Shown here in pieces: positions 1,582-48,513 of a stretch of DNA of 64,000 nucleotides. Source of the DNA: Clostridium sp. (GTDB lineage Bacteria > Bacillota > Clostridia > Clostridiales > Clostridiaceae); contig NZ_JAJFUC010000026.1 in the NCBI RefSeq assembly GCF_021372645.1, positions 62,001 to 126,000 of the forward strand. The letters are read 5' to 3'. The position numbers and the translations under genes were made by a program. The notes beneath the pieces are model-generated. The model ran no database searches and had not been told where the DNA came from. It was given only the letters and a program-made list of their open reading frames with translations. Position 1 is the stretch's first letter. Every line of letters starts with the position of its first letter.

Positions 1582-1650
1582 GCACATGAAATAAAACAAC
1601 AGACGCAATATACAAAAATATTGGTCTGTTGTTTTATTTCATGTGCCTAA
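1582..1650 (+). repeat. Palindromic intergenic repeat copy A (hairpin downstream of the PBP gene)
   Basis: A perfect 23-bp inverted repeat (1582-1604 pairs with 1624-1646) encloses a 19-base loop. The outer arm on the reverse strand reads TAGGCACATGAAAT then AAAACAACAG, which resembles the ends of the copies near 22431, 40271 and 48376. The arm contains its own T-rich stretch but no long T tract follows, so it is not a textbook terminator, although an RNA hairpin of this length would probably stop or protect transcripts. Confidence 0.7.
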
Positions 1651-1713
1651 AGTTATAAATAGAAAAGCAAAATATTATAATAGAACTAATAAAAAAATAA
1701 AAATGTACACGCA

Positions 1714-1740
1714 ACTTTTCTAAAACTTAAACATATTATA
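1714..1740 (+). promoter_or_regulatory. Candidate mother-cell (sigma-K/sigma-E type) promoter of sigK
   Basis: AC at 1714-1715, a 16-base spacer and CATATTATA at 1732-1740 match the sigma-K pattern AC-N16/17-CATANNNTA known from Bacillus. The -10 also fits the sigma-E box partly. It ends about 18 bases before the ribosome binding site of sigK. This is inference from consensus only. Confidence 0.4.
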
Positions 1741-1768
1741 ATATCAAGCACTGCTATGGAGGAAAAAG

Positions 1769-2467
1769 GTGTTTATATTAAATAGCTTTATAGACTTAAT
1801 ATGTAATTCATTTTTTTTAACAGGATATGTAACAAACAGCAATACTTTTCCGTTACCCTTAGATGAAGCAGAAGAACAAATGTATTTAAAGAAGTTTAAA
1901 GAGGGCGATAAAACTGCAAAAAGCATTTTGATTGAAAGAAACCTAAGATTAGTAGCTCATATAGTAAAAAAGTACTCATTTCCTAATAAGGATGTGGATG
2001 AATTAATTTCTATTGGTACTGTTGGATTAATAAAGGCTATTGATTCTTTTGATTCTAGTAAAGGAACTAGACTTGCTACTTATGCTTCAAGGTGTATTGA
2101 AAATGAAATTTTAATGTTGTTTAGAAATAATAAAAAACAAAAAAGTGAAATTTATCTTCAAGATCCAATTGGAGTTGATAAAGAAGGAAATGAATTTTGC
2201 CTTATGGATATATTAAGTAGTGAAAAAGATTGTGTTTTAGAAAAAGTTGAAAGTAATTTACAAATTAGAGCTTTATATAAAAAATTGGTTGAGTCATTAA
2301 CTAAAAGAGAAAGTTCCATTTTAATTATGAGGTATGGATTAATAGATGGAAAGTGCAAAACACAAAGAGAAATAGCTATAATTTTAGGGATTTCACGTTC
2401 CTATGTGTCAAGAATTGAAAAGAAAGCTTTGAAAAAATTGAAAAAAGAGTTATTTACAAAAAATTAA
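1769..2467 (+). CDS. sigK: RNA polymerase sigma factor SigK (pro-sigma-K)
   Basis: Late mother-cell sporulation sigma factor. The start is a GTG with GGAGG six bases upstream. The first 20 or so residues (MFILNSFIDLICNSFFLTGY) form the hydrophobic pro-sequence expected to be removed by an intramembrane protease before activation. Region 2 follows ([45 protein letters not shown]), then region 4 with the helix-turn-helix TQREIAIILGISRSYVSRIEKKAL. The 232 residues match the family length. The gene is continuous: no skin-type element interrupts it, unlike in B. subtilis or C. difficile. A sporulation-type promoter candidate lies just upstream and a terminator follows. The choice between SigK and SigE rests on the pro-sequence, the RSYVSRIEKKAL ending and the presence of a separate sigE at 7404. 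Confidence 0.92.
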   Translation: MFILNSFIDLICNSFFLTGYVTNSNTFPLPLDEAEEQMYLKKFKEGDKTAKSILIERNLRLVAHIVKKYSFPNKDVDELISIGTVGLIKAIDSFDSSKGTRLATYASRCIENEILMLFRNNKKQKSEIYLQDPIGVDKEGNEFCLMDILSSEKDCVLEKVESNLQIRALYKKLVESLTKRESSILIMRYGLIDGKCKTQREIAIILGISRSYVSRIEKKALKKLKKELFTKN

Positions 2468-2515
2468 AATTATGAATATTTTTTTATTTATATAGAGGAA
2501 TATTGACATACTTAG

Positions 2516-2553
2516 AATAAGGGTGCTATTTTTATATAGTACCCTTATTTTTA
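2516..2553 (+). terminator. Rho-independent terminator after sigK
   Basis: AATAAGGGTGCTA (2516-2528) pairs with TAGTACCCTTATT (2537-2549) with one G-U pair and a short loop, followed by T residues. It sits about 50 bases past the sigK stop. Confidence 0.8.
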
Positions 2554-2723
2554 CAAAAAAATAATTCACCTATAAAAAAGTACGCACCGATGAAAAAGCG
2601 CGAAGCGCAACCAAGAACATTTTAAGCACATATAAGAACAATTAACTTAAAAAAGAGAATTAAGGACTGTTGTTCATATGTATATATAGAGAAAATTATA
2701 AAGTGATTAGGAGAGAGGAGATT

Positions 2724-3755
2724 ATGGCAAAAATAGATAGATTATTAGATGATATTGATATACGGCATGTATCTGATATTCATATAACCTCAGGATTAGC
2801 TCCAATGGTAAGAATTGATGGAAAACTTATAACGGCATATGGCGATGTTATACCTTATGAAGTAGTTGACGAATATATCAAGGATTTAGTGCCAGATAAA
2901 TACGAAGAATTCTTAGAAAATGGGGAAATAGACTTTAAGTATAATAGACATGGAATATGTAAATTTAGAGTTAATGCATTTAAATGTAGAGAAAGTTATG
3001 CTATCTGTCTTAGGGTTATTAAAGAATCTATACCAAGGCTTAAGGACTTAACAACTGCACCTGCTTTAAAGGCTTTTACTGAATTAAATGATGGATTGGT
3101 TTTAGTTACAGGACCTACAGGCTCTGGTAAAAGTACCACCCTTGCTGCGATGGTTAATGAAATAAATATGACTAAAGAAAAACATATAATAACTTTAGAA
3201 GAACCAATAGAATATGTATATGATGCTAATAAGTGTATGATAAATCAAAGAGAAGTTGGACAAGATACAAAAAGTTATGCAATGGGACTAAGAGCTGCTC
3301 TTAGGCAAGATCCAGATGTTATACTTCTTGGAGAAATGAGAGATCCTGAAACAATAGAAATAGCTTTAAGAGCAGCACAAACAGGACATTTGGTTTTTTC
3401 TACTCTGCATAATATGGGAGCAGCAAATAGTATATATAGGATTATAAATTCATTTGAGTCTGGTCATCAAAATGAAGTTAAAATTCAATTGTCTTCATTA
3501 CTTAGGGGCGTTGTTTCACAGGTGTTATTGCCAAATGCCTCAGGAAAAGGTAGAACAGCTGCAATGGAAATAATGGTATGTACATCAAGTATAAAAAATC
3601 TTATCAGAGAAGGAAATTATGAACAAATTAATAGTTTTATTCAAATGGGCTCTAAGTTTGGAATGCAAACTATTGACATGGATTTAAAAAGATTAGTGAA
3701 TAATAATATTATATCAAGACAACAATATGAAATATGGATATCAAATAATAAATAA
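2724..3755 (+). CDS. pilT: PilT-family type IV pilus retraction ATPase
   Basis: Hexameric secretion ATPase that powers pilus retraction at the inner membrane. The start is taken as ATG 2724, behind the purine-rich GGAGAGAGGAG at 2710-2720. A longer frame from TTG 2670 adds 18 residues without family resemblance. Motifs in order: Walker A GPTGSGKS (residues 130-137), Asp box with TLEEPIEYV, Walker B DVILLGEMRDPETI, His box TGHLVFSTLH, and the PilT-type C-terminal motif IKNLIREGNYEQI, where the family usually has AIRNLIRE. The 343-residue length fits PilT and lacks the long N-terminal domain of PilB. No pilin or other pilus gene lies in the window, so it is detached from its partners, as is often the case in clostridia. 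It lies between sigK and the division genes. Confidence 0.9.
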   Translation: MAKIDRLLDDIDIRHVSDIHITSGLAPMVRIDGKLITAYGDVIPYEVVDEYIKDLVPDKYEEFLENGEIDFKYNRHGICKFRVNAFKCRESYAICLRVIKESIPRLKDLTTAPALKAFTELNDGLVLVTGPTGSGKSTTLAAMVNEINMTKEKHIITLEEPIEYVYDANKCMINQREVGQDTKSYAMGLRAALRQDPDVILLGEMRDPETIEIALRAAQTGHLVFSTLHNMGAANSIYRIINSFESGHQNEVKIQLSSLLRGVVSQVLLPNASGKGRTAAMEIMVCTSSIKNLIREGNYEQINSFIQMGSKFGMQTIDMDLKRLVNNNIISRQQYEIWISNNK

Positions 3756-3856
3756 ATTAAATTAAATTAATTTGTTTAAATAAAAGAGGAATTTCAATAG
3801 ATATGTTGAATTCATAGTGCAAATAGATTTTTTTCTGTAAGGGAAGGCTTGATTTT

Positions 3857-5113
3857 ATGCAACAAGAGATAATTACATCTGTAGATTTTGGAAGTGGGAA
3901 GTTATCTGCAACTATAGCAGTTAAAGGAAAAGAAGAACTAGAAATATTATGTGTTAAATCCTGCAAATCAATAGGCATAGAAAAAGGAATGTTAACAGAT
4001 ATTAATAAGTGCAAGAAAGCTGTAATTAATTTATTAACGGAATTAGAAGAAAAGATAAAGAAAGATGTTAAATATTTAACCATTGGCATTTCTTCAAGTA
4101 ACGTTAGAATTACAGAAACAACAATTCAGACTGTTCTAAAAGAGGGAAAGGTTACAAGTCAAGATATAAAAAAAGCACTAAAAAATGGACAAAATACTAT
4201 TACTATAAGTAGTGATGAGTCTATAGTAGATGTGTTAATAAATTTTTATATATTGGATGGTAAGGTAATACATGAAGATATACTCAACTGGAAAGGAAGA
4301 AAACTTGAATTAAATCTCACATTAGTAATAGCAAAAACAAAAGAAATTGAAAAATATTATGAGATTTTTAAAGAAACTAAATATAATATTGAATTTGTAA
4401 AGCTAAACATATTATCAGGAAAACAAATATTTTTAAATGAAAAAAATTCCATAGGCAATGTAGCATTAGCAGATATTGGTGCTGGAATTGTTGATATAGT
4501 TTTATTTAGTAATGGTATTCCTCAAAGTATAGATTGTTTACAAATAGGTGGTAATAATATTACTAATGATTTAGCTATTTGTGGAAGATTTTCTTTTATA
4601 GAAGCAGATAATATAAAAAAGATTTATTCAAGTAATTGCAAGGCATTCTATAACGATAATTCTATTCCAGATGAAATTGAGGTAGGAACTACAAAAGTAT
4701 CTAGGAAATTATTTTATCAAGTTGCAAATGCTAGGATTGAAGAAATATTAAATCATATTAATATCAAATTAAAAAATACTGGTCATTATGATAGAATTTG
4801 TAGTATAATTCTATATGGGGATGGAGTTAGCTATTTTGAAGATATAAATGAAATTGTTCATAAAATTTTCAAGGTGCGAACCAAGGTCATAAAAAGAATT
4901 GATTTAGGAATAAAGAATTCAGAAAATATAACTTCATTAGCGATAGCTAAAGAAGTATATGATAGATTAAATTTATTAGAGGATAGGAACGTAGTTCTAA
5001 CTAATAAAAGTAATGAAAATAAGAAAATAGAGGAAATAGGAAATTTACACAAGAATGAAGATAAAAATCATATATTAAAAAAAGTTAAAGGTTTTTTTGA
5101 TAAGCTTTTTTAA
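3857..5113 (+). CDS. ftsA: FtsA-like cell division protein (actin/ASKHA ATPase fold)
   Basis: FtsA-like protein that would tether FtsZ to the membrane and recruit divisome proteins. The N-terminus [16 protein letters not shown] is the phosphate-1 loop of the actin/Hsp70 fold. [16 protein letters not shown] near residue 208 is the phosphate-2 loop, and [15 protein letters not shown] corresponds to the adenosine motif. The C-terminus ends in a basic, amphipathic-looking helix ([14 protein letters not shown]), which fits the membrane-targeting sequence of FtsA. It is diverged, and the 1C interaction domain is only weakly recognisable. The gene ends 14 bases before ftsZ, whose ribosome binding site lies in that gap, so the two are almost certainly co-transcribed. 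The neighbour supports FtsA over MreB or PilM. Confidence 0.82.
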
Positions 5114-5127
5114 GGGGAGGAATTGTT

Positions 5128-6264
5128 TTGTTAGATTTTGAGACAGATATGCAAGAATTAACCAATATAAAAGTAATTGGTTGCGGTGGCGGTGGAAGTA
5201 ACGCTGTAAATAGAATGATAGTTGAGGGATTGAAAAATGTTGAATTTATTGCAATAAATACTGATAAGCAAGCATTATTGCTTTCTAATGCAAATCAAAA
5301 GATTCAAATTGGAGAAAAATTAACTAAAGGATTAGGCGCTGGTGCAAATCCTGAAATAGGAAAGAAAGCAGCAGAAGAAAGCAGAGAAGAAATCACAGCT
5401 TCAGTAAAGGGAGCTAATATGGTGTTTATTACAGCTGGAATGGGTGGCGGAACAGGAACTGGTGCTGCTCCAATCGTTGCAGAAATAGCTAAATCTATGG
5501 AGATATTGACTGTAGGGGTAGTTACAAAGCCATTTCCTTTTGAAGGAAAAAGAAGAATGAGGCATGCAGAAATTGGAATTGCCAATTTAAAAGAAAAAGT
5601 TGATACATTAGTTATAATTCCAAATGAAAGATTACTTAGTATGGCTGATAAGAAAACAACACTGTTAGATTCTTTTAAATTAGCGGATGAAGTGCTAAGA
5701 CAAGGTGTACAAGCGATTTCAGACTTAATTACAATAACGGGTGTAATTAATGCTGACTTTGCTGATATAAAAGCAGTAATGCTTGATAAGGGATTAGCGC
5801 ATATGGGTGTTGGATTTGGTAAAGGTGATACTAGAACACAAGATGCTGTTAGACAAGCAATATCATCTCCACTTTTAGAAACATCAATAGATGGAGCTAC
5901 TGATGTTATTATAAACTTTACTGGTGGAGCGGATCTTGGAGCATTGGAAGTATACGATGCAGCTGATGTTGTACGTGAAGCTGTTGATCCAGATGCAAAT
6001 ATAATTGTTGGAGCTGTAATAGATGAAAATCTTAGTGAAGAAATAAGAATTACTGTTATAGCAACTGGATTTGAAAGTGAAAATAGTAGAATAGCAAATA
6101 CTATATTAGAAGAACCAAAGAAACCTCAAGTACAGGTACAAGAAGTAGCAAAGCAAGAACCAGAAGTTGCTGTAGATGTGAAAGAATCAGAAATAAGTTC
6201 TAATAATTATGAAGCAGATGATTTAGATATACCTGTTTTTTTAAGAAGACAAAAGAGATATTAA
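5128..6264 (+). CDS. ftsZ: Cell division protein FtsZ
   Basis: Tubulin-like GTPase that polymerises into the Z ring at mid-cell, or near a pole during sporulation. The start is a TTG seven bases after GGGGAGG (5114-5120). N-terminal [14 protein letters not shown] starts the nucleotide-binding fold, and the tubulin signature [10 protein letters not shown] lies near residue 107. [21 protein letters not shown] forms the core helix, and residues around [17 protein letters not shown] build the C-terminal subdomain. A variable Q/E/V-rich linker (about 330-365) precedes the conserved tail [14 protein letters not shown], which binds FtsA and other partners. The 378-residue length is typical. It is co-transcribed with the FtsA-like gene and followed at once by a perfect hairpin. 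Confidence 0.97.
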
Positions 6265-6270
6265 TTATAA

Positions 6271-6330
6271 TAGGTATATTTCAAAAAATAAGAAGTCAAT
6301 ATGCATGGCATATTGACTTCTTATTTTTTC
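6271..6330 (+). repeat. Palindromic intergenic repeat copy B / terminator after ftsZ
   Basis: A perfect 22-bp stem (6283-6304 with 6308-6329) closes on a three-base loop and ends in a run of T, a strong intrinsic terminator. The flank TAGGTATAT followed by CAAAAAATAAGAAGTC matches the left arm of the larger copies, so it looks like a minimal member of the same family. Confidence 0.8.
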
Positions 6331-6523
6331 GTTTATTTTAAGGTACTTATATTATAAATTGAAAAGTTAGATTTTGTTATACTTATTTATAGCAAATTTA
6401 TATAAGATAAATGAGTTTATTTTTATATATTAAGTTAGTTTTCAATATAAAAAAGTAAACAAAAAAATATCGTGTATATATATGTAAAAAGTTAAATTAA
6501 AAAAACAAAAGTATTTAATGTCA

Positions 6524-6558
6524 TTGCGACAAATTTTTAAAATAAACAAGTATATAAT
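6524..6558 (+). promoter_or_regulatory. Spo0A-type promoter of spoIIGA-sigE
   Basis: TGCGACAAA (6525-6533) matches the inverted 0A box TTCGACAAA at eight of nine positions and overlaps a -35-like TTGCGA. TATAAT lies at 6553-6558, leaving an over-long 23-base spacer. A long spacer with a 0A box at the -35 is the arrangement known for the B. subtilis spoIIG promoter. Start of transcription would be near 6565, shortly before GGAGG at 6575. The rest of the gap (6331-6523) shows nothing I can name. Confidence 0.6.
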
Positions 6559-6586
6559 AAAATCAACACAGAATGGAGGAGTTAAG

Positions 6587-7429
6587 ATGGAAGTTTATGC
6601 TGACATTATAATTTTAGAAAATTGTATAGTAAATTTCTTTTTATTAACATTAACCATGAAATGCATAAAGCATAAATGTAAGATAAGTTCATTAATATGC
6701 TCTAGTTTAATAGGAGGAATTTATACTATAGTTCTACTAATTCCTAAGTTAAATATATTGGCTTGCTTGCCTTGTGAATTAGCAGTAGCTTGCATCATGA
6801 TTAGATTAGTGTATGGAAAGACAAGCATTTTCAATATGATTAAATTATTAGTTACATTTTTAATGATGACATTTACTTTAAGTGGAGTATGCTTTTTATT
6901 TTCATTAAAACAAAATTTATGTTTACTAGGAAACACATATAAAATAGAAAAATATTCAGTTAAATATATTATGTTAGGAATAATGATTATATATTTAATT
7001 TATAGTAGATTTATAGAATACATTAAAGATAAATTATTTACTAATAATTTTAGTTTTAAAATTGAATTTGAAGTAGAAAATAGACAATATAGTTTTCAAA
7101 GTTTTTTAGATACAGGAAATGAGTTGAGAGAGCCAATTAATAATCTTCCATGTATTTTAATTGAAGAAAATTTAATAAATGATATAAATTTTGATGGTAA
7201 GAACATATATCATATACTTTATAGCTCAATTGGGCATGATGGTAAGCTTAAAGGTATAAGAGTTAATGATATAAAAGTAACAAAAAAGGATTGCTTATAT
7301 GAGAAAATTGATGCAATAATATGCCCTTGTAAAGAAAAGTTAAGTAATGAACATGAGTTCAATGCTCTATTATCAAGGGGAATAGTATATAAGGGGGATA
7401 TATATGGAAAAACTAATGTTGCTATTTAA
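6587..7429 (+). CDS. spoIIGA: Sporulation sigma-E factor-processing peptidase SpoIIGA
   Basis: Membrane-embedded aspartic protease that cleaves pro-sigma-E in the mother cell after asymmetric division. The start is ATG 6587 with GGAGG seven bases upstream. A longer frame from 6518 would begin inside the promoter and is rejected. The N-terminal half has about five hydrophobic segments ([52 protein letters not shown] and others). The soluble C-terminal half carries the catalytic motif [11 protein letters not shown], where the DTG aspartate serves the active site. The 280-residue length is normal. Its end overlaps sigE by 26 bases, which couples protease and substrate synthesis. Confidence 0.95.
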
Positions 7430-8111
7430 CAAATTAATATGCAAGTTTAAGATGTTTAGAAAAAAATTATATTATGTTGGTGGAAATGATGCTTTGCCAC
7501 CACCCTTATCAAAGGATGAAGAAGAAGAGTTAGTAAACAAATTAAATTACGGAGATGAAAAAATTAGAAGTACATTAATTGAAAGAAATTTGAGATTAGT
7601 TGTTTATATAGCTAGAAAATTTGAAAATACAGGTGTATATGTAGAGGATTTAATATCTGTTGGAACTATTGGATTAATAAAAGCTGTAAATACTTTTAAT
7701 CCAGAAAAAAAGATAAAGCTTGCAACTTACGCATCAAGATGTATAGAAAACGAAATTCTAATGTATTTAAGAAGAAATAGCAAGATAAAAGCTGAAATTT
7801 CATTTTATGAACCACTAAATATTGATTGGGATGGAAATGAACTGCTATTATCAGATATATTAGGAACTGAAAACGATACAGTATATAATTTGATTGAAGA
7901 TGAAGTTGATAAACAATTATTAGTTATGGCATTGAAAAGCTTAAATGATAGAGAAAAAGAAATAGTACGTCTTAGATTTGGATTAAATGGAACAAGAGAA
8001 AAGACACAAAAAGAAGTAGCTGATATGCTTGGAATCTCTCAATCGTATATATCTAGATTAGAAAAAAAAATAATTAAAAGATTGAAAAAAGAAATAAGTA
8101 GAATGATTTAG
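7404..8111 (+). CDS. sigE: RNA polymerase sigma factor SigE (pro-sigma-E)
   Basis: First mother-cell sigma factor. ATG 7404 lies inside the spoIIGA 3' end, behind a GGGGG stretch. The N-terminal basic/hydrophobic leader ([20 protein letters not shown], about 25-30 residues) is the membrane-associated pro-sequence removed by SpoIIGA. Sigma region 2 ([52 protein letters not shown]) and region 4 ([27 protein letters not shown]) are intact. Its 235 residues are close to the B. subtilis length. It is part of the spoIIGA operon. The gap to sigG is 73 bases and holds a separate forespore-type promoter. Confidence 0.96.
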
Positions 8112-8122
8112 CTTGTCTTCAA

Positions 8123-8152
8123 GTATAAAAGTATTGCCTATCGGAGATAATG
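8123..8152 (+). promoter_or_regulatory. Sigma-F-type promoter of sigG
   Basis: GTATA (8123-8127), a spacer of exactly 15 bases and GGAGATAATG (8143-8152) fit the Bacillus sigma-F pattern GYATA-N15-GGNNANAMTR at every defined position. It lies about 40 bases before the sigG start, as expected for a gene first switched on in the forespore by sigma-F. Consensus match only. Confidence 0.65.
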
Positions 8153-21405: not shown

Positions 21406-22398
21406 ATGAGTAAAATTACTTTTCTAGGCGGGGGAAGCTTTGGAAGTGCCTTAGCTGTTTTACTTGCAGAAAAAAATAATATTGTTAATATATACAACAG
21501 GGATGAAAATGTTGTTAATGAAATAAATATTAAAAGAACAAATGAAAAGTATATGAAAGACTTAAAAATTCCAAGCACCGTAACTGCATTTAATAATATT
21601 GAAGAAGCAATTGAAGGTTCGGATTATGTAGTATTATCAGTACCTTCCCATGTTATTAGAAGTATGTGCAAGACGCTCAAAGGAAAAATATCTAAGGATA
21701 TACCAATAATCTCAATTGCTAAAGGAATTGAAGAAGATAGTGATAAAAGATTATCAGTTGTAATTGAAGAAGAATTAGATAATCCAGTAGTTATTTTATC
21801 AGGACCAAGCCATGCAGAAGAGGTTAGTATGAGGCTTCCAACTACAATTGTAAGCACCTCTAAAGATATGAAATATGCAGAGGATGTTCAAGATTTGTTT
21901 ATGACTTCGTATTTTAGAATTTATACTAATGATGATATCATAGGAGTTGAAATTGGCGGTGCAGTAAAAAATATAATTGCATTAGCAGCAGGGGTTATAG
22001 ACGGTCTTGGATATGGAGATAATACAAAGGCAGCTCTTCTTACAAGAGGGATGAAAGAAATCACTAGAGTTGGAATAGCACTTGGTGGAAAAGCTGAAAC
22101 TTTTTATGGATTAACTGGTATGGGTGATTTAATAGTTACTTGTACATCTATGCATTCTAGAAATAGAAGAGCTGGCTTTTTAATTGGCAAAGGAATGCCG
22201 GTTGAAGAAGCTTTAAAAGAAATAGGTATGGTTGTTGAGGGAGTAAAAGCATGTAGAGCTTTTTACCAATTAAAAGAAAAGATTGGTATATCTATGCCTA
22301 TAACAGATGGTATTTATAAAAGTTTATTTGAAGGCAAGGATGCTAAAGTTATTATTGATGAGCTTATGAATAGAGATAAGAAAAGTGAAACATTTTAA
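21406..22398 (+). CDS. gpsA: NAD(P)-dependent glycerol-3-phosphate dehydrogenase
   Basis: Reduces dihydroxyacetone phosphate to sn-glycerol 3-phosphate for membrane lipid synthesis. The N-terminal Rossmann motif reads [26 protein letters not shown] and [11 protein letters not shown] belong to the nucleotide/substrate cleft, and [28 protein letters not shown] includes the catalytic lysine. [14 protein letters not shown] and [16 protein letters not shown] are typical C-terminal motifs. The 330-residue length is normal. It follows der by two bases, and an element of the palindromic repeat family lies downstream. Confidence 0.97.
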
Positions 22399-22430
22399 AG
22401 CTAGATATACAAAAAAAGAATAAATTTAAT

Positions 22431-22592
22431 TTAGGCATATGAAAGAAAATAACAAGTCCAAAATGTGATGTATATTTCGCGTCAGACGAGTAAGTATGTT
22501 TACCTCATAGCGGGCTATTAGGTGAACATGCTGATGAAGTATGACACGAAATAGACTAGCATATTGACTTGTTATTTTTTTGATTATGCCTT
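22431..22592 (+). repeat. Palindromic intergenic repeat copy C (full-length, downstream of gpsA)
   Basis: 162-base element. The outer arms TTAGGCATATGAAAG and AAAATAACAAGTC mirror GACTTGTTATTTTT plus TGATTATGCC at the other end. A second stem pairs TATTTCGCGTCA with TGACACGAAATA, and an inner hairpin pairs GTTTACCTCATAG (22498-22510) with CTATTAGGTGAAC (22515-22527). The T-rich right arm can act as terminator of the der-gpsA operon. It shares outer and inner sequence with copies at 37999, 40271 and 48376. Confidence 0.75.
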
Positions 22593-22671
22593 ATATAGAA
22601 TTCTAAAATAATTTTAATCATATATTAAAGTGGTTATAATTATTTTAGGATTTTTTAATTTAATATAATTT

Positions 22672-22700
22672 GTATATTTTAAAATTAGTATGAATATATA
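22672..22700 (+). promoter_or_regulatory. Possible sigma-E promoter of spoIVA
   Basis: GTATATT at 22672-22678 matches the sigma-E -35 box. After 14 bases AATATATA (22693-22700) matches CATACANT at only about four positions. It is supported mainly by spoIVA being a sigma-E gene in Bacillus. Confidence 0.3.
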
Positions 22701-22733
22701 TATATTGGTAAAAAGAATATAGGAGGGAAGTAA

Positions 22734-24212
22734 GTGGATAATTTTAACATATACAAAGATATAGCAGATAGAACCCAAGGGGACATATATGTGGGAGTTG
22801 TAGGACCAGTTAGAACAGGAAAATCTACATTTATAAAAAAGTTCATGGATCTTATGGTGATACCTAAAATTGATAATGCCCATAAAAAGGAAAGAGCAAA
22901 AGATGAATTGCCACAAAGTGGATCAGGAAAAAATATTCATACAACAGAACCTAAGTTTGTACCTAATGAGGCGGTTGAAATAAATTTAGGTGACGAGATT
23001 AAATTTAAAATAAGGATGGTTGATTGCGTAGGGTATATTGTAAAGGGGGCTTTAGGTTATTTAGATGGAGAGGAAAGTAAAATGGTTCATACACCATGGT
23101 TTGATTATGAAATACCATTTGAAGATGCTGCTGAAATCGGAACAAGAAAGGTAATAAATGATCATTCTACAATAGGACTTGTAGTCACAACAGATGGTAG
23201 TATAACAGGAATAGATAGAAATGATTATATAGATGCAGAGGAAAGGGTAATATATGAACTGCAGTCCTTAAATAAACCATTTATTGTTGTTCTTAATACA
23301 AGTAAACCTAATTCTCAAGAAACTAAAGTATTAAAGAAAGAATTAGAAGATAAATATAATGTAACAGTACAAGTAATGGATGTTTACAATATGGAAGAAC
23401 AAGATATTGAAGATTTGTTTAAACATGTACTTAAAGAGTTCCCTATAAAAGAAATTAACATTGATATGCCTGAATGGTTAGAAAAATTAGAGTGTAACCA
23501 TTGGCTAAAAAAAGACTTTTTCAACATAATTATGAGTATGAGTCAAGATGTCTCTAAAGTAAGAGATATTAAGTACTGTTTGAACAATTTTGAAGAAGAA
23601 GATTTTATGGGGAAAGCTACAATAAAAGAGGTAGACTTGGGAAATGGAATGGCAAAAGTACTTATGAAACCAAAGGATGGAATTTTCTATAAAGTTCTTA
23701 GTGAAATATGTGACTTAGAAGTCAATTCAGAAAGTGACTTACTTGGAATAATAAAAGATTTAACTCACGCTAAATATGAATATGATAAAGTCAAAGATGC
23801 CTTGGAAGATGTAAAGGGAACTGGATATGGGTTAGTTGCACCGCAACTTGCAGAAATGAAGTTTGAGGAACCTGAAATAGTTAAACAAGGGAATAAATAT
23901 GGAGTGAAATTAAAAGCAAGTGCTCCAAGCTTACATTTTATAAAATGTGATATAAAAACAGAAATAAGTCCTATAATGGGATCTGAAAAGGAATCAGAAG
24001 AACTTGTAAAAGGACTCCTTCAACAATTTGAAATAGATCCAGCCCTTCTTTGGCAAAGTAATATGTTTGGAAAATCTTTAGAAGTGTTAGTAAAGGAAGG
24101 CTTACAAAATAAACTGTATAAGATGCCAGAGGATGTTCAAATTAAGATTCAAAAGACTCTACAAAAAATCATTAATGAAGGTAATGGTGGGTTGATTTGT
24201 ATAATCCTTTAA
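22734..24212 (+). CDS. spoIVA: Stage IV sporulation protein A (spore coat basement ATPase)
   Basis: Mother-cell ATPase that polymerises on the forespore surface as the foundation of the coat, anchored by SpoVM (encoded at 40624). GTG start with AGGAGGG about six bases upstream. Walker A is GPVRTGKST (from residue 24), with the fused TRAFAC-like motifs RMVDCVGYIV and VVTTDGSITGIDRNDYIDAEERV, and NTSKPNSQETK in the base-recognition position. A long middle and C-terminal domain follow, ending GNGGLICIIL, the conserved tail needed for polymerisation. The 492-residue length is standard. It stands alone between two repeat/hairpin regions. Confidence 0.97.
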   Translation: MDNFNIYKDIADRTQGDIYVGVVGPVRTGKSTFIKKFMDLMVIPKIDNAHKKERAKDELPQSGSGKNIHTTEPKFVPNEAVEINLGDEIKFKIRMVDCVGYIVKGALGYLDGEESKMVHTPWFDYEIPFEDAAEIGTRKVINDHSTIGLVVTTDGSITGIDRNDYIDAEERVIYELQSLNKPFIVVLNTSKPNSQETKVLKKELEDKYNVTVQVMDVYNMEEQDIEDLFKHVLKEFPIKEINIDMPEWLEKLECNHWLKKDFFNIIMSMSQDVSKVRDIKYCLNNFEEEDFMGKATIKEVDLGNGMAKVLMKPKDGIFYKVLSEICDLEVNSESDLLGIIKDLTHAKYEYDKVKDALEDVKGTGYGLVAPQLAEMKFEEPEIVKQGNKYGVKLKASAPSLHFIKCDIKTEISPIMGSEKESEELVKGLLQQFEIDPALLWQSNMFGKSLEVLVKEGLQNKLYKMPEDVQIKIQKTLQKIINEGNGGLICIIL

Positions 24213-24867: not shown

Positions 24868-24960
24868 AACTTATTTTTTGAGGTGAGAAAGGGCTCCTCA
24901 CGCGCTAAGTATAGTAATCAGAGATGCAGGATACGCCGACCTGCCAAAAAATAATTTATA
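24868..24960. repeat. Structured palindromic segment upstream of a terminator
   Basis: Outer arms ATTTTTTG (from 24874) and CAAAAAAT (ending about 24951) enclose two small hairpins: GTGAG pairing with CTCAC near 24883-24900, and GCAGG pairing with CCTGC near 24925-24945. It is relatively GC-rich for this genome. It shares the general plan of the palindromic repeat family but not its sequence. It has no coding potential. Confidence 0.4.
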
Positions 24961-37998: not shown

Positions 37999-38072
37999 AT
38001 ATAATAAGTCAAAGATGTTTGAGTCAGGTAGAGGGGATGCTTAGTTCATAGTGCGTTATTAAGTGAATCGAA
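37999..38072 (+). repeat. Degenerate palindromic repeat copy F (prkC-rsgA gap)
   Basis: ATAATAAGTCAAAGATG (from 38001) and TTCATAGTGCGTTATTAAG (near 38043-38062) align with the left arm and inner hairpin of copy C (ATAACAAGTCCAAAATG and CTCATAGCGGGCTATTAGG). The right outer arm is missing, so it appears to be a decayed member of the family. Confidence 0.45.
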
Positions 38073-39635: not shown

Positions 39636-40271
39636 TTGAATGTGGCGATTGTAAGTGGAGGTAAAGCACCATCAGAAAGATTATTAAGGCGTTATCTTGA
39701 AAAAGTAGATGTTATAATAGCTGCTGATAGGGGAAGTGAATGTCTTTATAATTATGGTATTGTTCCAGACTTGCTACTCGGAGATTTTGATTCTGTGAAA
39801 AAAGAAGTTTTAGATAATATGAAATTACAAATAAAAGAAGTTTTAGAGTTTCCACCAGAAAAGGATTATACAGATACCGAAATTGCAATAATAGAAGCTA
39901 TTAAAAGAGGCGCAAAGAAAATATATCTATTTGGAGCAATTGGATCTAGGGTGGATCATACGTTGGGAAATATAGGGCTTCTTTTAACTACCAAGAAAAA
40001 AGGAGCAACTTTAGAAATAATTGATGATAATAATAGTCTTTATCTAGGCGAAAAGAAAATGAAGTTGTTTGGAGAATATGGTGAAAATATATCTTTTCAT
40101 GCACTATGTGATAAAGTTAAGGGTTTTAAGATTAGAGGCGCTAAATACAATTTAGAGACTTGCGATATGAGTTTATTAGATCCAAGAGCTATATGTAATG
40201 AGTTTATTGATACTCCAATAGAGATTAGTTATGAAGAAGGAGAATTATTAATTCTCCACTCAATTGATTAA
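39636..40271 (+). CDS. thiN: Thiamine pyrophosphokinase
   Basis: Converts thiamine to thiamine diphosphate. TTG start, seven bases after GAGGGGG. Characteristic motifs: AADRGSECLYNYGIVPDLLLGDFDS, where the aspartates bind metal; FPPEKDYTDTEIAI; FGAIGSRVDHTLGNIGLL. The C-terminal beta sandwich contains KGFKIRGAKYNLE and SNEF-like ICNEFIDTPIEIS. The 211-residue length is normal. It ends the prpC-prkC-rsgA-rpe-thiN run, and a copy of the palindromic repeat begins at its stop codon. Confidence 0.94.
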   Translation: MNVAIVSGGKAPSERLLRRYLEKVDVIIAADRGSECLYNYGIVPDLLLGDFDSVKKEVLDNMKLQIKEVLEFPPEKDYTDTEIAIIEAIKRGAKKIYLFGAIGSRVDHTLGNIGLLLTTKKKGATLEIIDDNNSLYLGEKKMKLFGEYGENISFHALCDKVKGFKIRGAKYNLETCDMSLLDPRAICNEFIDTPIEISYEEGELLILHSID

Positions 40272-40480
40272 GGTATATCAAAGAAAATAACAAGTCAAAG
40301 ATGCGATGTATTTTGACCAGACAGGAGTATGACATAAGATGAAACTTTTTAGGTTAAATTTTTTATATTCCAGCTGAATTTAGTTGAACCTATCTTTAAA
40401 AGGGGCACCACGTTTGGGGTAGGGAAGACGTAAGGTGAAACACGAGTACACTGACCTATTATTTTTTTTTGAATATGCCT
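40271..40480 (+). repeat. Palindromic intergenic repeat copy D (expanded, downstream of thiN)
   Basis: 210-base element beginning AGGTATATCAAAG then AAAATAACAAGTCAAAG, and ending CTGACCTATT, T10-rich, GAATATGCCTAA. The outer arms pair as in copies C and E, but the middle is larger, with an internal stem of AGGTTAAATT against AATTTAGTTGAACCT and a GC-richer stretch near 40400-40440. It is placed directly on the thiN stop codon. Confidence 0.7.
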
Positions 40481-40623
40481 AATATACGTTTAGTCTTTGA
40501 AAGTTATTTTCTTTGATGGATAAAATTTGGAACATTTTTAATAGTAACTGAATATTAATATAATAAGATCAAATTAATTTCAAGATGGGTGTTTTGTATT
40601 ATTAATATTTAGGAGGGATAGCT

Positions 40624-40695: not shown

Positions 40696-40706
40696 AGTAT
40701 ACATAA

Positions 40707-40741
40707 GGCATGTTTTATTATTTATTTTTCCATATGCCTAA
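40707..40741 (-). repeat. Truncated palindromic repeat copy G (between spoVM and rpmB)
   Basis: On the reverse strand it reads TTAGGCATATGGAAA then AATAAATAATAAAACATGCC, i.e. the left outer arm of the family joined to a short right arm. GGCAT and ATGCC at its ends can pair. Confidence 0.5.
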
Positions 40742-41760: not shown

Positions 41761-41773
41761 GAGGTTAAACTAA

Positions 41774-43444: not shown

Positions 43445-43447
43445 AAC

Positions 43448-43486
43448 AATAATAGAAGCGCCTAAATAACAGGTGCTTTTATTATT
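43448..43486 (+). terminator. Hairpin between fakA and recG
   Basis: AATAATAGAAGCGCCT pairs imperfectly with AGGTGCTTTTATTATT around AAATAAC. The T-rich right arm could terminate. It overlaps the upstream part of the frame read from 43473, which is one reason to place the recG start further down. Confidence 0.65.
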
Positions 43487-43505
43487 GTTGAAAGGAGGCA
43501 AACAT

Positions 43506-45539
43506 TTGGATATATATAGTAATATTTCTGTTTTAAAAGGAGTAGGTCCAAAAGCTACTGAAAAATTAAATAGATGTGGAATTTTTAATATATTAGACAT
43601 TTTGTTATATTTCCCAAGAAATTATGAATTTGTAGATAGTAATGCAAAATTTGAAAATATTACAGAGGAAGACAAACAAATTTTAAAATGTGAAGTTATA
43701 CGATTTAGAAGTGATGTTAAGACTAAAACTGGTAAACTATTGACAACAATAGATTTTAATTATAATGGACATAAAGTGTCTGCAAAGTGGTTTAATCAAA
43801 GATATATAAAAAGTTCTTTTGCGCTAGGAAAAATATATAATTTGATGGGGAAGTTTAAAAGAATAGGTAATACTTTAAAAGTAATTAACCCTATAGTTAC
43901 TTGTGAGGAAGCACTATCAAGTGAAATTCTACCCCAATATCCTTTAAAAGCAGATATAAGTAATAAACTATTCGAAAAATTGATTAATGAGATTTTATCA
44001 CATATGGAAGTTAAAGAAAATTTATCTAAGAATATAATAGATAAATATTCTTTAATTTCTTTAAATGACGCTATAAGAAACATACATTTCCCGGAAAATA
44101 AAGACATGTTAGAAAAAGCTACAATAAGACTTAAGTTTCAAGAATTATTCACATACTCATTAAAATTATTGCTTCTAAAGTATAAAATTAAAAAAAATGC
44201 AAATGGGATATTTTACGAATGGGTAGATGAACTTAGTGATTTTAAAGAAAAGCTACCATTTCCGCTTACGGGTGCTCAAACTAGAGTTGTACGTGAAATT
44301 TTAAGAGACCAAAAGTCAAATTCTTCTATGAATAGATTAATTCAAGGGGATGTTGGAAGTGGGAAGACCATAGTTGCCCTAATAGCTATTTTTAATGTTA
44401 TTAAAAATGGCTATAAATGTGCTTTTATGGCTCCAACAGAAATTCTTGCAAGTCAACATTTTGAAGAATCAAAAAAAGTTTTTAAGGATTTTAATATAGA
44501 AATGGAATTATTAACAGGATCAACTACTTTAAAGGAAAAGCAAAGAATTAAAGAGAGAATTAAAGCTTCAGAACCTATTTTGGTAATAGGAACTCACGCA
44601 CTTTTCCAAGATGATGTGGAATTCAGAAAATTAGGATTAATAGTAACTGATGAACAACACAGATTTGGAGTGGAGCAGAGAAGTAAGCTCATAAATAAAG
44701 GAAAAAGAGCAGATTGCTTGGTTATGACAGCTACACCAATTCCCCGAACTTTAGCTTTATATCTTTATTCGGATCTAGACGTATCTATAATTGATGAGTT
44801 GCCACCAGGTAGAAAGAAAATAGATACTAGATTTTACGTAGATGCTCAAAGAGGCATAGGTTATGATTTAGCTTACGATGAAATAGAAAAAGGAAGGCAA
44901 GTATATATTGTTTGTCCTCTTATTGAAAAAGATGAAAAGGAAGAATTAAATTCAGTTGAAACTGTGTATAACAGACTTACAAATGGAATTTTTAAAGACT
45001 TAAAGGTTGAAATTCTTCACGGAAAAATGAAGGGAACAGAAAAAGATGACATAATTAAAAGATTTAAAAATAATGAATTTAATGTTTTAATTTCAACTAC
45101 TGTAATTGAAGTTGGAGTTAATGTTCCTAATGCTTCAGTTATGATTGTTGAAAATGCAGAAAGATTTGGTCTTTCTCAGCTTCATCAATTAAGAGGGAGA
45201 GTTGGAAGAGGAGATTATTCTTCTTATTGCATATTAATAGCAAAGGCTAAAAGCAATACAACTAAAAAGAGGATGCAAATAATGACAGAATGTAGTGATG
45301 GATTTTTAATATCAGAAAAAGATTTGAAGCTTAGAGGTGCAGGAGAAATGTTTGGTAGAAAACAAAGTGGAGATGAAGGTTTTATACTTGCAAATCTTTA
45401 TGATGATATAAAAATTTTAAGATGTGCTAAACTAGAAGCAAATAATATGCTGCAAAATGAATTCGAGTTAAATAAAGAAATAATAAATGAGATTAGCAAG
45501 AATTTAGAAAAAAGCAGTAAATATATTTGTTTTAATTAA
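43506..45539 (+). CDS. recG: ATP-dependent DNA helicase RecG
   Basis: Branch-migration helicase for stalled forks and Holliday junctions. The start is TTG 43506, seven bases after AAGGAGG. Upstream codons in the frame read LLLLLKGG through the hairpin and ribosome binding site and are rejected. It begins DIYSNISVLKGVGPKATEKL, the helix-hairpin-helix-like wedge domain leader. Helicase motifs: GDVGSGKTIVAL, MAPTEILASQH, TDEQHRFGV, MTATPIPRTL, STTVIEVGVNVPNAS and QLRGRVGRG. The C-terminal hook has LRGAGEMFGRKQSG. The 678-residue length is normal. Confidence 0.96.
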   Translation: MDIYSNISVLKGVGPKATEKLNRCGIFNILDILLYFPRNYEFVDSNAKFENITEEDKQILKCEVIRFRSDVKTKTGKLLTTIDFNYNGHKVSAKWFNQRYIKSSFALGKIYNLMGKFKRIGNTLKVINPIVTCEEALSSEILPQYPLKADISNKLFEKLINEILSHMEVKENLSKNIIDKYSLISLNDAIRNIHFPENKDMLEKATIRLKFQELFTYSLKLLLLKYKIKKNANGIFYEWVDELSDFKEKLPFPLTGAQTRVVREILRDQKSNSSMNRLIQGDVGSGKTIVALIAIFNVIKNGYKCAFMAPTEILASQHFEESKKVFKDFNIEMELLTGSTTLKEKQRIKERIKASEPILVIGTHALFQDDVEFRKLGLIVTDEQHRFGVEQRSKLINKGKRADCLVMTATPIPRTLALYLYSDLDVSIIDELPPGRKKIDTRFYVDAQRGIGYDLAYDEIEKGRQVYIVCPLIEKDEKEELNSVETVYNRLTNGIFKDLKVEILHGKMKGTEKDDIIKRFKNNEFNVLISTTVIEVGVNVPNASVMIVENAERFGLSQLHQLRGRVGRGDYSSYCILIAKAKSNTTKKRMQIMTECSDGFLISEKDLKLRGAGEMFGRKQSGDEGFILANLYDDIKILRCAKLEANNMLQNEFELNKEIINEISKNLEKSSKYICFN

Positions 45540-45603
45540 ATTGAAATACTATGTATGTATGTGTTAATATATTAAATATATAGACTTAAGGAGGAATAAT
45601 GTT

Positions 45604-46161
45604 TTGAGAATAATAGCAGGAAAAGCAAGAGGACATAAATTAATACCTCCAGCAACAATGGAAACTAGACCTACATTAGATAGGGTTAAGGAAGCTATGT
45701 TTAGCTCAATTCAGTCATATATACAAGATGCAGTGGTTGTGGATGTTTTTTCGGGAACAGGAAGTTTAGGATTAGAATCTGCAAGCCGAGGAGCAAGTGA
45801 GGTTTATTTATTTGATAAGAGCTCAGTGACATTCCCATTATTAAAGCAAAATGTAGAAAAACTTAGATTTGAAGATTTTTGTTTTCCTATAAATACTGAT
45901 GCTTATGCAGGACTTAGACAATTAGCAAGTAAGGGAAAAAAATTTGATATAATATTTATTGATCCACCTTATTGTAAAGAAATGATTCCAGAAGCTATGA
46001 AAATTGTTAAGGAACATGATTTGTTAAAGGAAGATGGAATAATAGTTACTAAAATAGATACTATTGAAGAAGTTTATGATGGCTATAAAGATATTAAATT
46101 AAATAAGAGTAAGAAATATGGAAATACAACAGTATGCTATTATAAGTATGAGGAGAAATAA
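45604..46161 (+). CDS. rsmD: 16S rRNA (guanine(966)-N2)-methyltransferase RsmD
   Basis: Methylates G966 (E. coli numbering) of 16S rRNA. The start is TTG 45604, eight bases after AAGGAGG. The nearby ATG at 45600 is followed at once by a stop. MRIIAGKARGHKLIPP and TRPTLDRVKEAMFS are family signatures, VVDVFSGTGSLGLESASRGA binds SAM, and the catalytic motif is FIDPPY. 185 residues. coaD starts three bases after its stop, the classical rsmD-coaD pair. Confidence 0.96.
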   Translation: MRIIAGKARGHKLIPPATMETRPTLDRVKEAMFSSIQSYIQDAVVVDVFSGTGSLGLESASRGASEVYLFDKSSVTFPLLKQNVEKLRFEDFCFPINTDAYAGLRQLASKGKKFDIIFIDPPYCKEMIPEAMKIVKEHDLLKEDGIIVTKIDTIEEVYDGYKDIKLNKSKKYGNTTVCYYKYEEK

Positions 46162-46164
46162 TTA

Positions 46165-46644
46165 ATGAAAATTGCAGTATATCCAGGAAGCTTTGATCCT
46201 ATAACTAACGGACATCTTGATATTATAAAGCGAGGATCAAAGGTGTTTGATAAAATCATAGTATCAGTATTAGTTAATGTGGATAAAAAGTCTCTTTTTG
46301 AAATTGATAAAAGAGTTGAATTAATAAAAAAAGTGACAAGGAATATAGAAAATGTTGAAGTTAGAAGTTTTAATGGACTTGTAGTAAATTTCCTAAAAGA
46401 ATGTAATACTAATATAATTTTAAAGGGATTAAGAACAAATTCGGATTTTGAATATGAGTCTCAAATGGCGTTTATGAATAATGAATTAGATTCAAATATT
46501 GAAACTGTATGTATGATGTCATCTTCTAAAAACCTACATATAAGTTCTTCTCATGTTAAACAAGTGGCGAAATTTGGAGGGAATATTGAAGCACTTGTTC
46601 CGACTGAAATTGTCTCAGATATAATATCTAGAATAAATATCTAA
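46165..46644 (+). CDS. coaD: Phosphopantetheine adenylyltransferase
   Basis: Penultimate step of coenzyme A synthesis. The N-terminal [16 protein letters not shown] contains the TxGH nucleotidyl-transfer motif. [20 protein letters not shown] follows and the C-terminal [14 protein letters not shown] corresponds to ISSTxVR. 159 residues. coaBC, an earlier step of the same pathway, is at 27253. Confidence 0.97.
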
Positions 46645-46655
46645 GGAGTGTTTTT

Positions 46656-47198
46656 ATGGAAAAAATAGATGTGAATATTATAGAGTTATTAGAGTATTTA
46701 CAAGATTTGGTGGAAAACTCATCAAAGGTACCTATGAGTGGTAAGGTTATGATTGATAAAAGAGAAATTAATGAAGTTATTGATCAAATAATTAATTATA
46801 TGCCAGATCAATTTAAAAAAGCTGAATGGGTTATGAGTGAAAGAGAGCGTATATTAAATGAAGCTAAGAAGGAATATGACTCTGTTAGAAAAGAAACAAT
46901 GACTATGATGAGGCAAAATGTTGAAAATCATGATATTGTAAAAGAAGCAAAGGTGAGGGCTCAAGAAATTATAGCCTCAGCACAACGAGATGCTAAGGCT
47001 ATAAGACTAGGGTCTAGAGACTATTCTGATGAAATATTAACTCAATTGGATAAAGAAATAGAAGATCAAAAGATAAAGTTAATAAAAGGTCTCCAAGATA
47101 GCTTTGAATCAGTTGCTAAGGATATTGATACAAGTTTAGCTGCTGCATGTAATGTTATAAGAGATAATGTTAAAGAATTACGTAGCATGAAAAAATAA
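46656..47198 (+). CDS. Conserved coiled-coil protein of unknown function (coaD-ylbJ interval)
   Basis: 180-residue protein rich in charged residues, with predicted long helices and coiled coil from about residue 55 to 160 (ERERILNEAKKEYDSVRKET and KEAKVRAQEIIASAQRDAKA). The alternation resembles the stator b subunit of ATP synthase, which is why such proteins get called ATPase-like, but no ATP-binding motif or membrane segment is present. GGAGTG precedes the ATG. It follows coaD by 11 bases and so shares its transcript. Its 3' end overlaps the convergent ylbJ by 21 bases. Function unknown. A scaffold role is only a guess. Confidence 0.8.
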   Translation: MEKIDVNIIELLEYLQDLVENSSKVPMSGKVMIDKREINEVIDQIINYMPDQFKKAEWVMSERERILNEAKKEYDSVRKETMTMMRQNVENHDIVKEAKVRAQEIIASAQRDAKAIRLGSRDYSDEILTQLDKEIEDQKIKLIKGLQDSFESVAKDIDTSLAAACNVIRDNVKELRSMKK

Positions 47199-48359
47199 TT
47201 TACAAGCCTTATTAAGTATAATTAATAAGAGTGTTAATAAAATTAAGACTAATATTGGATAAAAATATGTATATACACTTACAAAAGAATTTATTCTAAG
47301 TTTAGATGTATATATGCTTGTAGGTAATACTTTTAATAATATATAAGTTATAATAAAACTAAAGATTCCTTGGATTATCTTAAAAAATATATATTTACTA
47401 TAACGAATTTTAGTCTCACTTACAAAAGAACTGACTTGAGCAATTACAGCTAGACCTGAAAATGAGCATAAGAAGCTTATTATACTTAATTTTAGAGATA
47501 GTGAAATAGAAAGTGTAGATATAATGCTACAACCATTTGTCATTTCTATGCTTCCTAAAAACAAACAATATAAGGTTCCAACAGGTAAGCTTAAAAAAGT
47601 CTCTAACTGTTTAAATATAATATAAAAATAAACATTATTTTTAATAAGAGATATTACAACAGAAAAAATTATGATAAATCCGCCAATAGATAATGTGGTA
47701 TTTATTGCATTTTGAATTGCATTTTTTATTGCGGAACCAAAATTTATCATTTCATATTTTGGACAAGATAGAGAACTTAATTTCATTGGGTTTCGCTTTT
47801 TTTTTGTTATAAGTCCTATTAAGATACTTGATAAGTAATTTCCAACAAGCAAAATATATCCTAAAGAGACATTTCCAAGTAAAGTGCCAGCAACAGAACC
47901 AATTAAAAATAGCGGACCAACATTAGAAGCTATATTCAAAAGTCTCTCATACTCATCTTTTTTTATATACTCCATAGAGTATAAATCAACACAATACTTT
48001 GCACCTAATGGATAACCACAAAGAATACTAGCTACAATAGGGAAGGAGCAATTCTTAGAAAGTCCTAGGGGTTTGCAAATTAAAGGACCAAGAAACTTAG
48101 AATAAAGGCTTATCCCATCATAGTATATTAGTAAGTTACAGATAACTATAAAGGGAAAGGTTGTTGGTAATATAGATTTATACCATAATTTGCATCCATC
48201 AATAGCTGCAGAAATGCATTGGTTTATATTTAATATAAAAAGAATTATTAATATAGAAATAAATATGCAAATAATAATATTTTTTTTTATATTAAGTTGC
48301 TTAATTAAAATAATAATTAAGCTCATAATTAAAACCCACAAGATAATAATATATATCAT
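47178..48359 (-). CDS. ylbJ: Sporulation integral membrane protein YlbJ
   Basis: 393-residue membrane protein with about eight to ten hydrophobic segments. It has the nucleoside-transporter/YlbJ-type gate motifs (FPFIVICNLLIYYDGI; SILCGYPLGAKY; GLAVIAQVSSFV near the end). In B. subtilis it is a mother-cell sporulation gene needed for heat-resistant spores. The N-terminus starts with a hydrophobic stretch (MIYIIILWVLIMSLIIILI). It is on the reverse strand, tail to tail with the coiled-coil gene with 21 bases shared, and head towards a palindromic repeat copy. The coaD-ylbJ-ylbM neighbourhood is conserved in Firmicutes. Confidence 0.9.
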   Translation of the reverse strand: MIYIIILWVLIMSLIIILIKQLNIKKNIIICIFISILIILFILNINQCISAAIDGCKLWYKSILPTTFPFIVICNLLIYYDGISLYSKFLGPLICKPLGLSKNCSFPIVASILCGYPLGAKYCVDLYSMEYIKKDEYERLLNIASNVGPLFLIGSVAGTLLGNVSLGYILLVGNYLSSILIGLITKKKRNPMKLSSLSCPKYEMINFGSAIKNAIQNAINTTLSIGGFIIIFSVVISLIKNNVYFYIIFKQLETFLSLPVGTLYCLFLGSIEMTNGCSIISTLSISLSLKLSIISFLCSFSGLAVIAQVSSFVSETKIRYSKYIFFKIIQGIFSFIITYILLKVLPTSIYTSKLRINSFVSVYTYFYPILVLILLTLLLIILNKACKLFFHAT

Positions 48360-48375
48360 GAAATCACTCCAATCT

Positions 48376-48513
48376 TTAGGCGTATTCTAGAAAATAATAA
48401 GTCGGTATGCTAGTCTATTTTGAGTCATGAGGAAGTTTGACTCGTATACACTCGCTGAGTCTGACTAAAAATAGACATCGCATCATCGATTTATTATTTT
48501 CTTTCATATGCCT
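48376..48513 (-). repeat. Palindromic intergenic repeat copy E (downstream of ylbM, reverse orientation)
   Basis: 138-base element. Read on the reverse strand it begins GGCATATGAAAGAAAATAAT and ends with AATAATAAGTC's mirror and GCCTAA, matching copy C. A second stem pairs TCTATTTTGAGTCA with TGACTAAAAATAGA. It lies between the ylbM stop and the ylbJ start, both on the reverse strand, so its polarity equals that of ylbM. Confidence 0.75.

Follow-up and report, generated by a model that had tools for sequence, protein, structure and literature searches.

Several intergenic gaps in a 64,000-nucleotide stretch of a Clostridium sp. genome (GCF_021372645.1, contig NZ_JAJFUC010000026.1, positions 62,001 to 126,000; hereafter the window) hold large palindromic segments whose ends resemble one another. 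Are these terminators, structured RNAs or copies of something that moves? An earlier note, made from the sequence of the window, had favoured a non-autonomous element that proliferates and exists as short, full, expanded and decayed copies, and this is upheld, with at least 91 places in the genome of the window (G000). Doubtful cases apart, the segments belong to a new family resembling miniature inverted-repeat transposable elements (MITEs), with a conserved RNA-like core; by description, the nearest kind is bcr1. With a probability of roughly 0.75, its members are non-autonomous DNA elements that would be moved by a transposase acting in trans, and the RNA-like interior would be kept by selection on active source copies.

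Family definition, copy number and transposition

A typical copy measures about 160 bp, mostly about 163 bp, and the accepted forms span 61 to 315 bp. Most copies read are bounded by imperfect terminal inverted repeats of about 25 bp, with GGCAYATGAAAGAAAATAACAAGTC on the left and GGCAYAATCAAAAAAATAACAAGTC, or a sequence near it, on the right. Such terminal repeats, a length below 500 bp and many scattered copies are characteristic of MITEs. A search of the whole genome with the segment starting at 22431 returned 90 alignment rows, with TTA-GGCATATGAAAG...TTATGCC-TTA as a frequent reading. Within the window, the pattern AAAATAACAAGTC with up to two mismatches occurs 18 times, compared to a shuffled mean of 7.2, and none of 100 shuffles reaches 18. 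For the outer pattern alone, at up to three mismatches, the window shows no enrichment (40 against 38.6; 36 of 100 shuffles have as many). Genome-wide, a longer end pattern gives 57 + 62 occurrences and its reversed control 1 + 1.

Copies were counted with a covariance model, R1, built from an alignment (A2) of 11 full copies of the window's genome without extra modules, the 22431 copy included; the fold of one A2 copy served as its structure. At E ≤ 1, the element is found at no fewer than 91 places in this genome, with 58 at 40 bits or more. Among the 91, 26 measure 140–235 nt and score at least 60 bits, while 40 are shorter than 80 nt. The count (108 R1 rows minus 17 opposite-strand rows) is a lower bound, as 150 of 5,496 first-look candidates were scored and the window copy at 1578 fell outside that list. 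The proviso that a genome-wide search might find only a handful of hairpins is thereby answered.

The flanks of the copies point to transposition. Across 147 copies, 62 are flanked by TTA on both sides and 52 by TAA on both sides, giving 114 with identical TWA triplets, next to 4 mixed and 29 other cases. These copies stem from three R1 searches, one of which (179 rows) covered 100 of the 109 stretches found by a pattern scan described below; they represent 149 typed rows minus two duplicates. From the 179 rows of that one search, matches on the opposite strand, copies truncated at the end of a locus and some weak partial matches had been excluded. In genome G029, 76 of 85 copies have identical triplets, 2 mixed and 7 other ones. 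Palindromy by itself would pair TTA on one side with TAA on the opposite side, and identical triplets therefore represent direct duplications. A clean empty site agrees with this: G067 lacks the copy that G029 has at 5425604. In G067, both BLAST pieces meet at the same base and a single TCA stands at the site that reads TAA-element-TAA in G029. The gap between gpsA and spoIVA, occupied by the 22431 copy in the window, lacks the element in six relatives (G022, G013, G018, G011, G005 and G009) and holds a plain hairpin with a T-run instead, as judged by eye. Given the clean empty site in G067, the concern that close relatives might offer no empty sites does not apply. In G008, the same gap (L408) contains a stretch like a decayed right half beside a separate plain hairpin; as this is a possible remnant, the 22431 insertion may be older than the split from G008.

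Short forms of about 61–80 nt, without the interior, occur at many sites. Twenty of them were read, of which 12 have identical TWA triplets, 2 mixed and 6 other ones. By eye, an apparent common deletion junction recurs at different places (L323, L324, L328, L331 and L332), and likewise a second one (L321, L326 and L327). Since short forms occupy many sites with triplets of their own, the interior seems to be dispensable in cis, and a transposase supplied in trans would recognise the ends only, inserting the element at TWA.

The hosts belong to several families of Bacillota. R1 matches were found in 13 of 59 genomes at E ≤ 0.001, all within the genus. Of 68 genomes sampled from the genus, 23 had a match at E ≤ 1e-8 and 45 had none; the 13 and the 23 both include the window's genome. 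In a phylum-wide sample, 3 of 398 genomes match, namely the window's genome, G133 and G398, the latter two from other families. All searches of more than 40 genomes used stricter filters, and the phylum-wide sample scored seven candidates per genome. G005 has 56 element matches, and all seven scored candidates of G133 match. A pattern scan of named genomes yielded 109 stretches, including four Desulfosporosinus assemblies and several metagenome assemblies; the Clostridium hosts were C. chromiireducens, C. neonatale, C. uliginosum, C. puniceum, C. beijerinckii HUN142 and Clostridium sp. LS. By eye, the Desulfosporosinus copies are very similar to the ones in G000, which makes a transfer between distant hosts likely. 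The element gave no match in plasmid and phage collections, nor did two exact patterns in viral contigs, and carriage by plasmids or phages was rejected on this basis.

No Rfam family corresponds to the element, in line with the earlier note, which knew of no named family that matches. Searching the whole window against Rfam 15 gave a single match at the gathering threshold, RF02924 at 24873–24952, which is not the element, and within 22400–22620 the best score was 28.1 bits against a cutoff of 140; a known RNA family was ruled out by these searches. The titles and abstract openings of the open-access literature searched contain no description of the family. A hammerhead-like motif (CUGAYGA...GAAA), considered by eye, was dropped as its GAAA part is not conserved in the alignment.

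Fold of the interior and probable selection on its sources

Between the terminal repeats, an interior of about 110 nt folds into a single long hairpin, interrupted by internal loops that are for the most part conserved and in RNA letters lie around GACAAGG, ACGNAGUAU and AAAAUAGRC. The earlier note had proposed a test for compensatory changes, and these were found. In A2, 20 of 60 pairs carry double changes, with 91.7% of cells paired (at most 46.6% when slid) and a covariation of 0.260 (at most 0.075 when slid). A further alignment, A4, holds 21 sequences from four host groups, i.e. 3 from Desulfosporosinus, 10 from Clostridium and a Bacillota assembly, 3 from G133 and 5 from G398. Here, 27 of 47 pairs show double compensatory changes, 94.1% of cells are paired compared to at most 47.5% and covariation is 0.452 compared to at most 0.118; in both alignments the structures were taken from the data, from an A2 member and from the A4 consensus, which biases the comparison with the slid controls in their favour. 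Although the copies of G398 have a different terminal repeat (GGGGCTATCAAG), they retain most of the internal-loop letters (around GACAAGG, ACGNAGTAT and AAAxAGAC) and of the apical ATA/TAT. Together with the identical flanking triplets, the covariation rules out chance hairpins.

The fold is strand-specific when read as RNA. The + strand folds better in 152 of 161 copies (mean -66.7 against -55.7; shuffled -31.1 against -26.0), and the consensus RNA fold reaches -45.6 on the + strand and -19.3 on the - strand. With DNA parameters the strands differ little (-34.9 against -31.8), the + strand being better in 131 of 161.

Changes within the stems indicate where selection might act. Among 80 full copies, G-U accounts for 252 cells and A-C for 120, 53 of the latter lying in two columns with a register shift. 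Relative to the consensus of the six nearest kin, 124 changes are G-U and 67 A-C; of the double changes, 43 lead to another Watson-Crick pair, 3 to G-U and 4 to a mismatch, and the rate of change is 2.6% at paired and 5.0% at unpaired sites. Strictly private changes, seen in a single copy among close kin (73 copies), are divided into 16 G-U and 17 A-C. Because the kin-shared changes favour G-U and are often compensated, whereas the private ones are even, the interior appears to be kept by selection on the sources and not on each copy. From these small numbers we infer that inserted copies are nearly neutral and that the source lineages kept the RNA fold. The interior would thus be maintained through active source copies, most likely because a predicted + strand transcript would help full-length sources to persist or to be mobilised. 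Possible roles of such a transcript are protein binding or limiting damage to host mRNA.

Gene context, replication polarity and rival explanations

Gene contexts were called with a longest-ORF (open reading frame) caller that drops ORFs overlapping the element. Called genes flank 128 of the 147 copies on both sides, and the other 19 lie at locus edges. Tandem contexts comprise 47 co-directional and 47 opposed copies, next to 20 convergent and 14 divergent ones; G029 has 19 co-directional and 43 opposed tandem contexts, and the window's genome 13 and 6. The median distance to the gene 3' end is 33 bp for co-directional and 59 bp for opposed tandem copies, and 44.5 bp for all tandem copies of G029. 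Copies thus lie close to gene ends, with the proviso that intragenic copies would escape a caller of this kind. The earlier statement that copies follow gene ends directly holds loosely, given these medians. Its companion, that polarity follows the upstream gene, was suggested by the 13 to 6 lean of the window's genome and is not borne out across hosts. In two Desulfosporosinus copies (L128, 5356–5518, and L132, 297–454), the terminal TTA is followed at once, by eye, by GGAGG and a start codon, which places these copies immediately upstream of a likely ribosome-binding site.

Polarity relative to replication varies with the genome. In G029, GC skew flips at about 3.0 Mb, and of the 87 copies listed, 64 run against the leading strand (Fisher p 1.4e-5; 101 matches in total, 85 with both ends). 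When 83 of these were ordered by their distance to kin, 42 of the youngest 50 opposed the leading strand and 8 did not, compared to 19 and 14 of the oldest 33. In G027, 16 of 20 listed copies (28 matches) oppose it, as counted by hand. There is no clear polarity in G068 (63 against, 51 with; 114 listed of 135 matches) or in G071 (19:17 by hand; 36 listed of 46). By local skew, G000 has 10 copies against and 13 with, Desulfosporosinus 3 and 7, and the two largest other Clostridium groups show an opposed excess of 40:22 and 27:16. Replication-fork polarity as a general rule was rejected, being strong in G029 and G027 but unclear in G068, G071 and G000; it is genome-dependent, and no general mechanism is drawn from it.

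These contexts bear directly on the possibility that the family is a mobile intrinsic terminator or 3'-untranslated-region element, with copies kept where they end or stabilise the upstream transcript. The outer stem with its A-run and T-run, the short distances to gene ends, the co-directional lean in the window's genome and the gpsA-spoIVA gap, where the element stands in place of the plain hairpin of its element-free relatives, would all suit such a role, which the earlier note had also entertained. Over all hosts, however, co-directional and opposed copies are equally frequent, G029 has an excess of opposed ones, and at least the two Desulfosporosinus copies named above stand, by eye, just before a likely ribosome-binding site and start codon. 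A scan of 22300–22760 found no terminator, which is not decisive as it covered loops of 3–8 only. Without polarity towards the upstream gene across hosts, a general terminator role is unlikely, and the explanation as a whole is improbable; single copies may nevertheless have been adopted as terminators, e.g. in the gpsA-spoIVA gap. Even less credence is given to a parasite of the genome that would be transferred in single-stranded form at replication forks, in the manner of IS200/IS605, with the hairpin as the DNA recognised by a recombinase. Hairpins are common to both, and the leading-strand opposition in G029 (above all among its youngest copies), in G027 and in the other Clostridium loci would fit; this replication-linked polarity is seen here in some genomes only, being unclear in G068, G071 and G000 and leaning the other way in Desulfosporosinus. 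IS200/IS605 elements are not known to have inverted terminal repeats or a target duplication, whereas the element has both, with a 3-bp duplication. The two strands moreover differ little when folded as DNA.

A plain MITE, whose functionless interior is conserved by recent descent from few sources and paired through arm-to-arm conversion, would account for the even private changes, for interior-less short forms at many sites and for the lack of a preferred gene orientation over all hosts. Yet it is unlikely, given the double compensatory changes in A4 across hosts and the strand-specific G-U excess relative to near kin; nor can arm conversion explain the retention of most unpaired loop letters between hosts with different terminal repeats. 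Quite unlikely, too, is a selfish RNA gene in the form of a transposon, in which the + strand would be transcribed, the structured RNA, with the modules M1, M2 and X (described below) as optional extra domains of long copies, would be needed in trans for mobilisation and short forms would parasitise full-length RNA sources. If so, mobility would depend on the RNA as well as on a transposase. The reading given at the outset, of MITE-like elements with selection on their sources, has to face several findings that weigh against it. In the widest setting (158 copies), private changes of 66 G-U against 50 A-C are not significantly different. The test of strictly private changes is small, with 33 changes of the transition type, and includes 3 compatible and 0 mismatched double changes; the private rate of 0.8% at paired against 1.2% at unpaired sites makes some selection on individual copies possible. 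Base composition accounts for nearly half of the mean folding advantage of the + over the - strand. Finally, no autonomous partner was found: of 35 candidate end pairs, drawn from 1.63 Mb of loci that overlap in part, none convinces. One of them (L226) spans a DDE_Tnp_1 gene, yet one of its two members falls within the gene itself. DDE_Tnp_1 is present in 8 of 10 genomes, with no match in the element carriers G005 and G133, and DDE_Tnp_4 in 0 of 10, the searches being limited to these two transposase families. At 30 DDE_Tnp_1 loci, a loose pattern with many random matches gave no convincing repeat pair, which is weak evidence. A DDE_Tnp_1 or DDE_Tnp_4 partner was rejected, as neither the domain searches nor the locus scan supported it. 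Since G005 and G133 carry the element without a DDE_Tnp_1 match, the mobiliser probably belongs to another family than DDE_Tnp_1, or comes and goes. The TWA duplication recalls enzymes of the IS5/Harbinger type, a link not supported here.

Known repeat families were compared by description. Bcr1 of the Bacillus cereus group is 167 bp long with a conserved predicted structure (PMC2267715), and bcr repeats are MITE-like, often within untranslated regions or operon gaps (PMC3446304). Mobility of bcr repeats is associated with the motif TTTAT, and bcr1 is said to occur in the B. cereus group only (PMC6542083). Bcr1, bcr2 and bcr3 are like the element in their high copy number and similar length, and probably in their intergenic placement, by description and not by sequence; unlike bcr1, the element has TWA triplets in place of TTTAT and spans Clostridium, Desulfosporosinus, G133 and G398. 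MITEs in general are below 500 bp, with terminal inverted repeats, flanking direct repeats, an intergenic preference and transcripts predicted to form stem-loops (PMC10969869). Size, both kinds of repeats and a predicted stem-loop in the transcript are shared by the element, and an intergenic preference may be. The element differs in its interior, where compensatory changes extend across host families and most loop letters are conserved, and no parental insertion sequence was found for it. The stem-loop families listed for C. perfringens and C. tetani measure 93, 74, 31 and 90 bp, and Efa-1 of E. faecalis is 163 long with a pair of adjacent stem-loops (PMC2267715). BOX, RUP and Efa-1 are likewise dispersed repeats with a common fold, set apart from the element by description and not by sequence.

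The usual view of bacterial MITEs is that of empty shells moved about by a transposase. In this family, what unites the most distant hosts is the interior more than the terminal repeats, and this interior is strand-specific and covarying. Whether miniature transposons carry working RNAs becomes a directly testable question in clostridia that are tractable and non-pathogenic. In some hosts, the family also explains dozens of hairpins per genome that lack annotation; these can mislead the annotation of terminators, small RNAs and operons. It is also a marker for past transposition.

Nested modules and copies in the window

Extended copies of 205–315 nt hold further modules inside, some of which are common to different species: M1 (GTGAAAC..TTGAAC), M2 (CTTACTCAGCGAG..GAGTCGAGCTTCC) and the palindrome X (AGAAAAG..CTTTTCT). 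Carriers are L006, L010, L012, L015, L098, L133, L142, L150, L152, L178 and 40339–40399 of the window. M1 and X are found in either arm, and X is nested within itself in 246-nt copies. These modules may be mobile elements smaller than the family itself, or else optional domains of the RNA. Such a modular composition recalls BOX.

In the window, an R1 search with filters off gave 39 matches at E ≤ 10. The full-length copy lies at 22431–22593 (+), 163 bp with both TTA triplets (22431–22433 and 22591–22593), between a gpsA-like gene (21406–22398) and spoIVA (22734–24212), both named by Pfam; its R1 score of 189 bits is high by construction, as the copy is part of the model. An expanded copy at 40269–40482 (+) reads TAA-GGTATATC...ATATGCC-TAA and scores 21.4 bits (E 0.016) over 40284–40465; it was accepted because of its matching ends and the nested module M1 (ATGAAACTTTTT...GTTGAACCTATCTTTAA) at 40339–40399 (+), a pattern that recurs within other copies. 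Its left triplet (40269–40271) is at the same time the stop codon of a thiamin pyrophosphokinase-like gene at 39636–40271 (Pfam). The copy at 48376–48515 (-), which is locus L049 in the analysis of M2, is partly decayed with a nested M2 remnant (88 bits, E 1.7e-17; TTA on the left and TTC on the right of the + strand).

A short form of 73 bp at 1578–1650 consists of the outer stem only, a near-perfect palindrome with CAA on the left and TAA on the right. It belongs to the size class of other short copies, and its assignment to the + strand is weak (47.3 bits, E 2.3e-8, against 43.5 bits on the - strand). The remaining segments are doubtful. At 6270–6340, after ftsZ (Pfam), a hairpin resembles the inner arm (35 bits, E 1.3e-5, on the + strand and 32.7 bits on the - strand, leaving the strand open); its right flank has no terminal-repeat match, and it may be an ordinary terminator after ftsZ. 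A 38-bp stretch at 40704–40741, strand open, reads TAA-GGCAT...ATATGCC-TAA and could be a remnant, with a non-significant R1 score of 11.8 bits (E 2.2). A possible decayed left half at 37999–38072 (+) was recognised by eye only and is outside the 39 R1 matches. Of the six to seven segments originally grouped as one family, those at 22431, 48376, 1578 and 6270 are therefore significant by R1 and 40269–40482 stands by its ends, whereas 40704 and 37999 receive no support from R1. Elsewhere in the window, a weak R1 match at 54045–54105 (19.4 bits, E 0.042) reads as an ordinary short terminator hairpin, and the RF02924 match at 24873–24952 (+) is a skipping-rope RNA (81.5 bits in Rfam), unrelated to the element.

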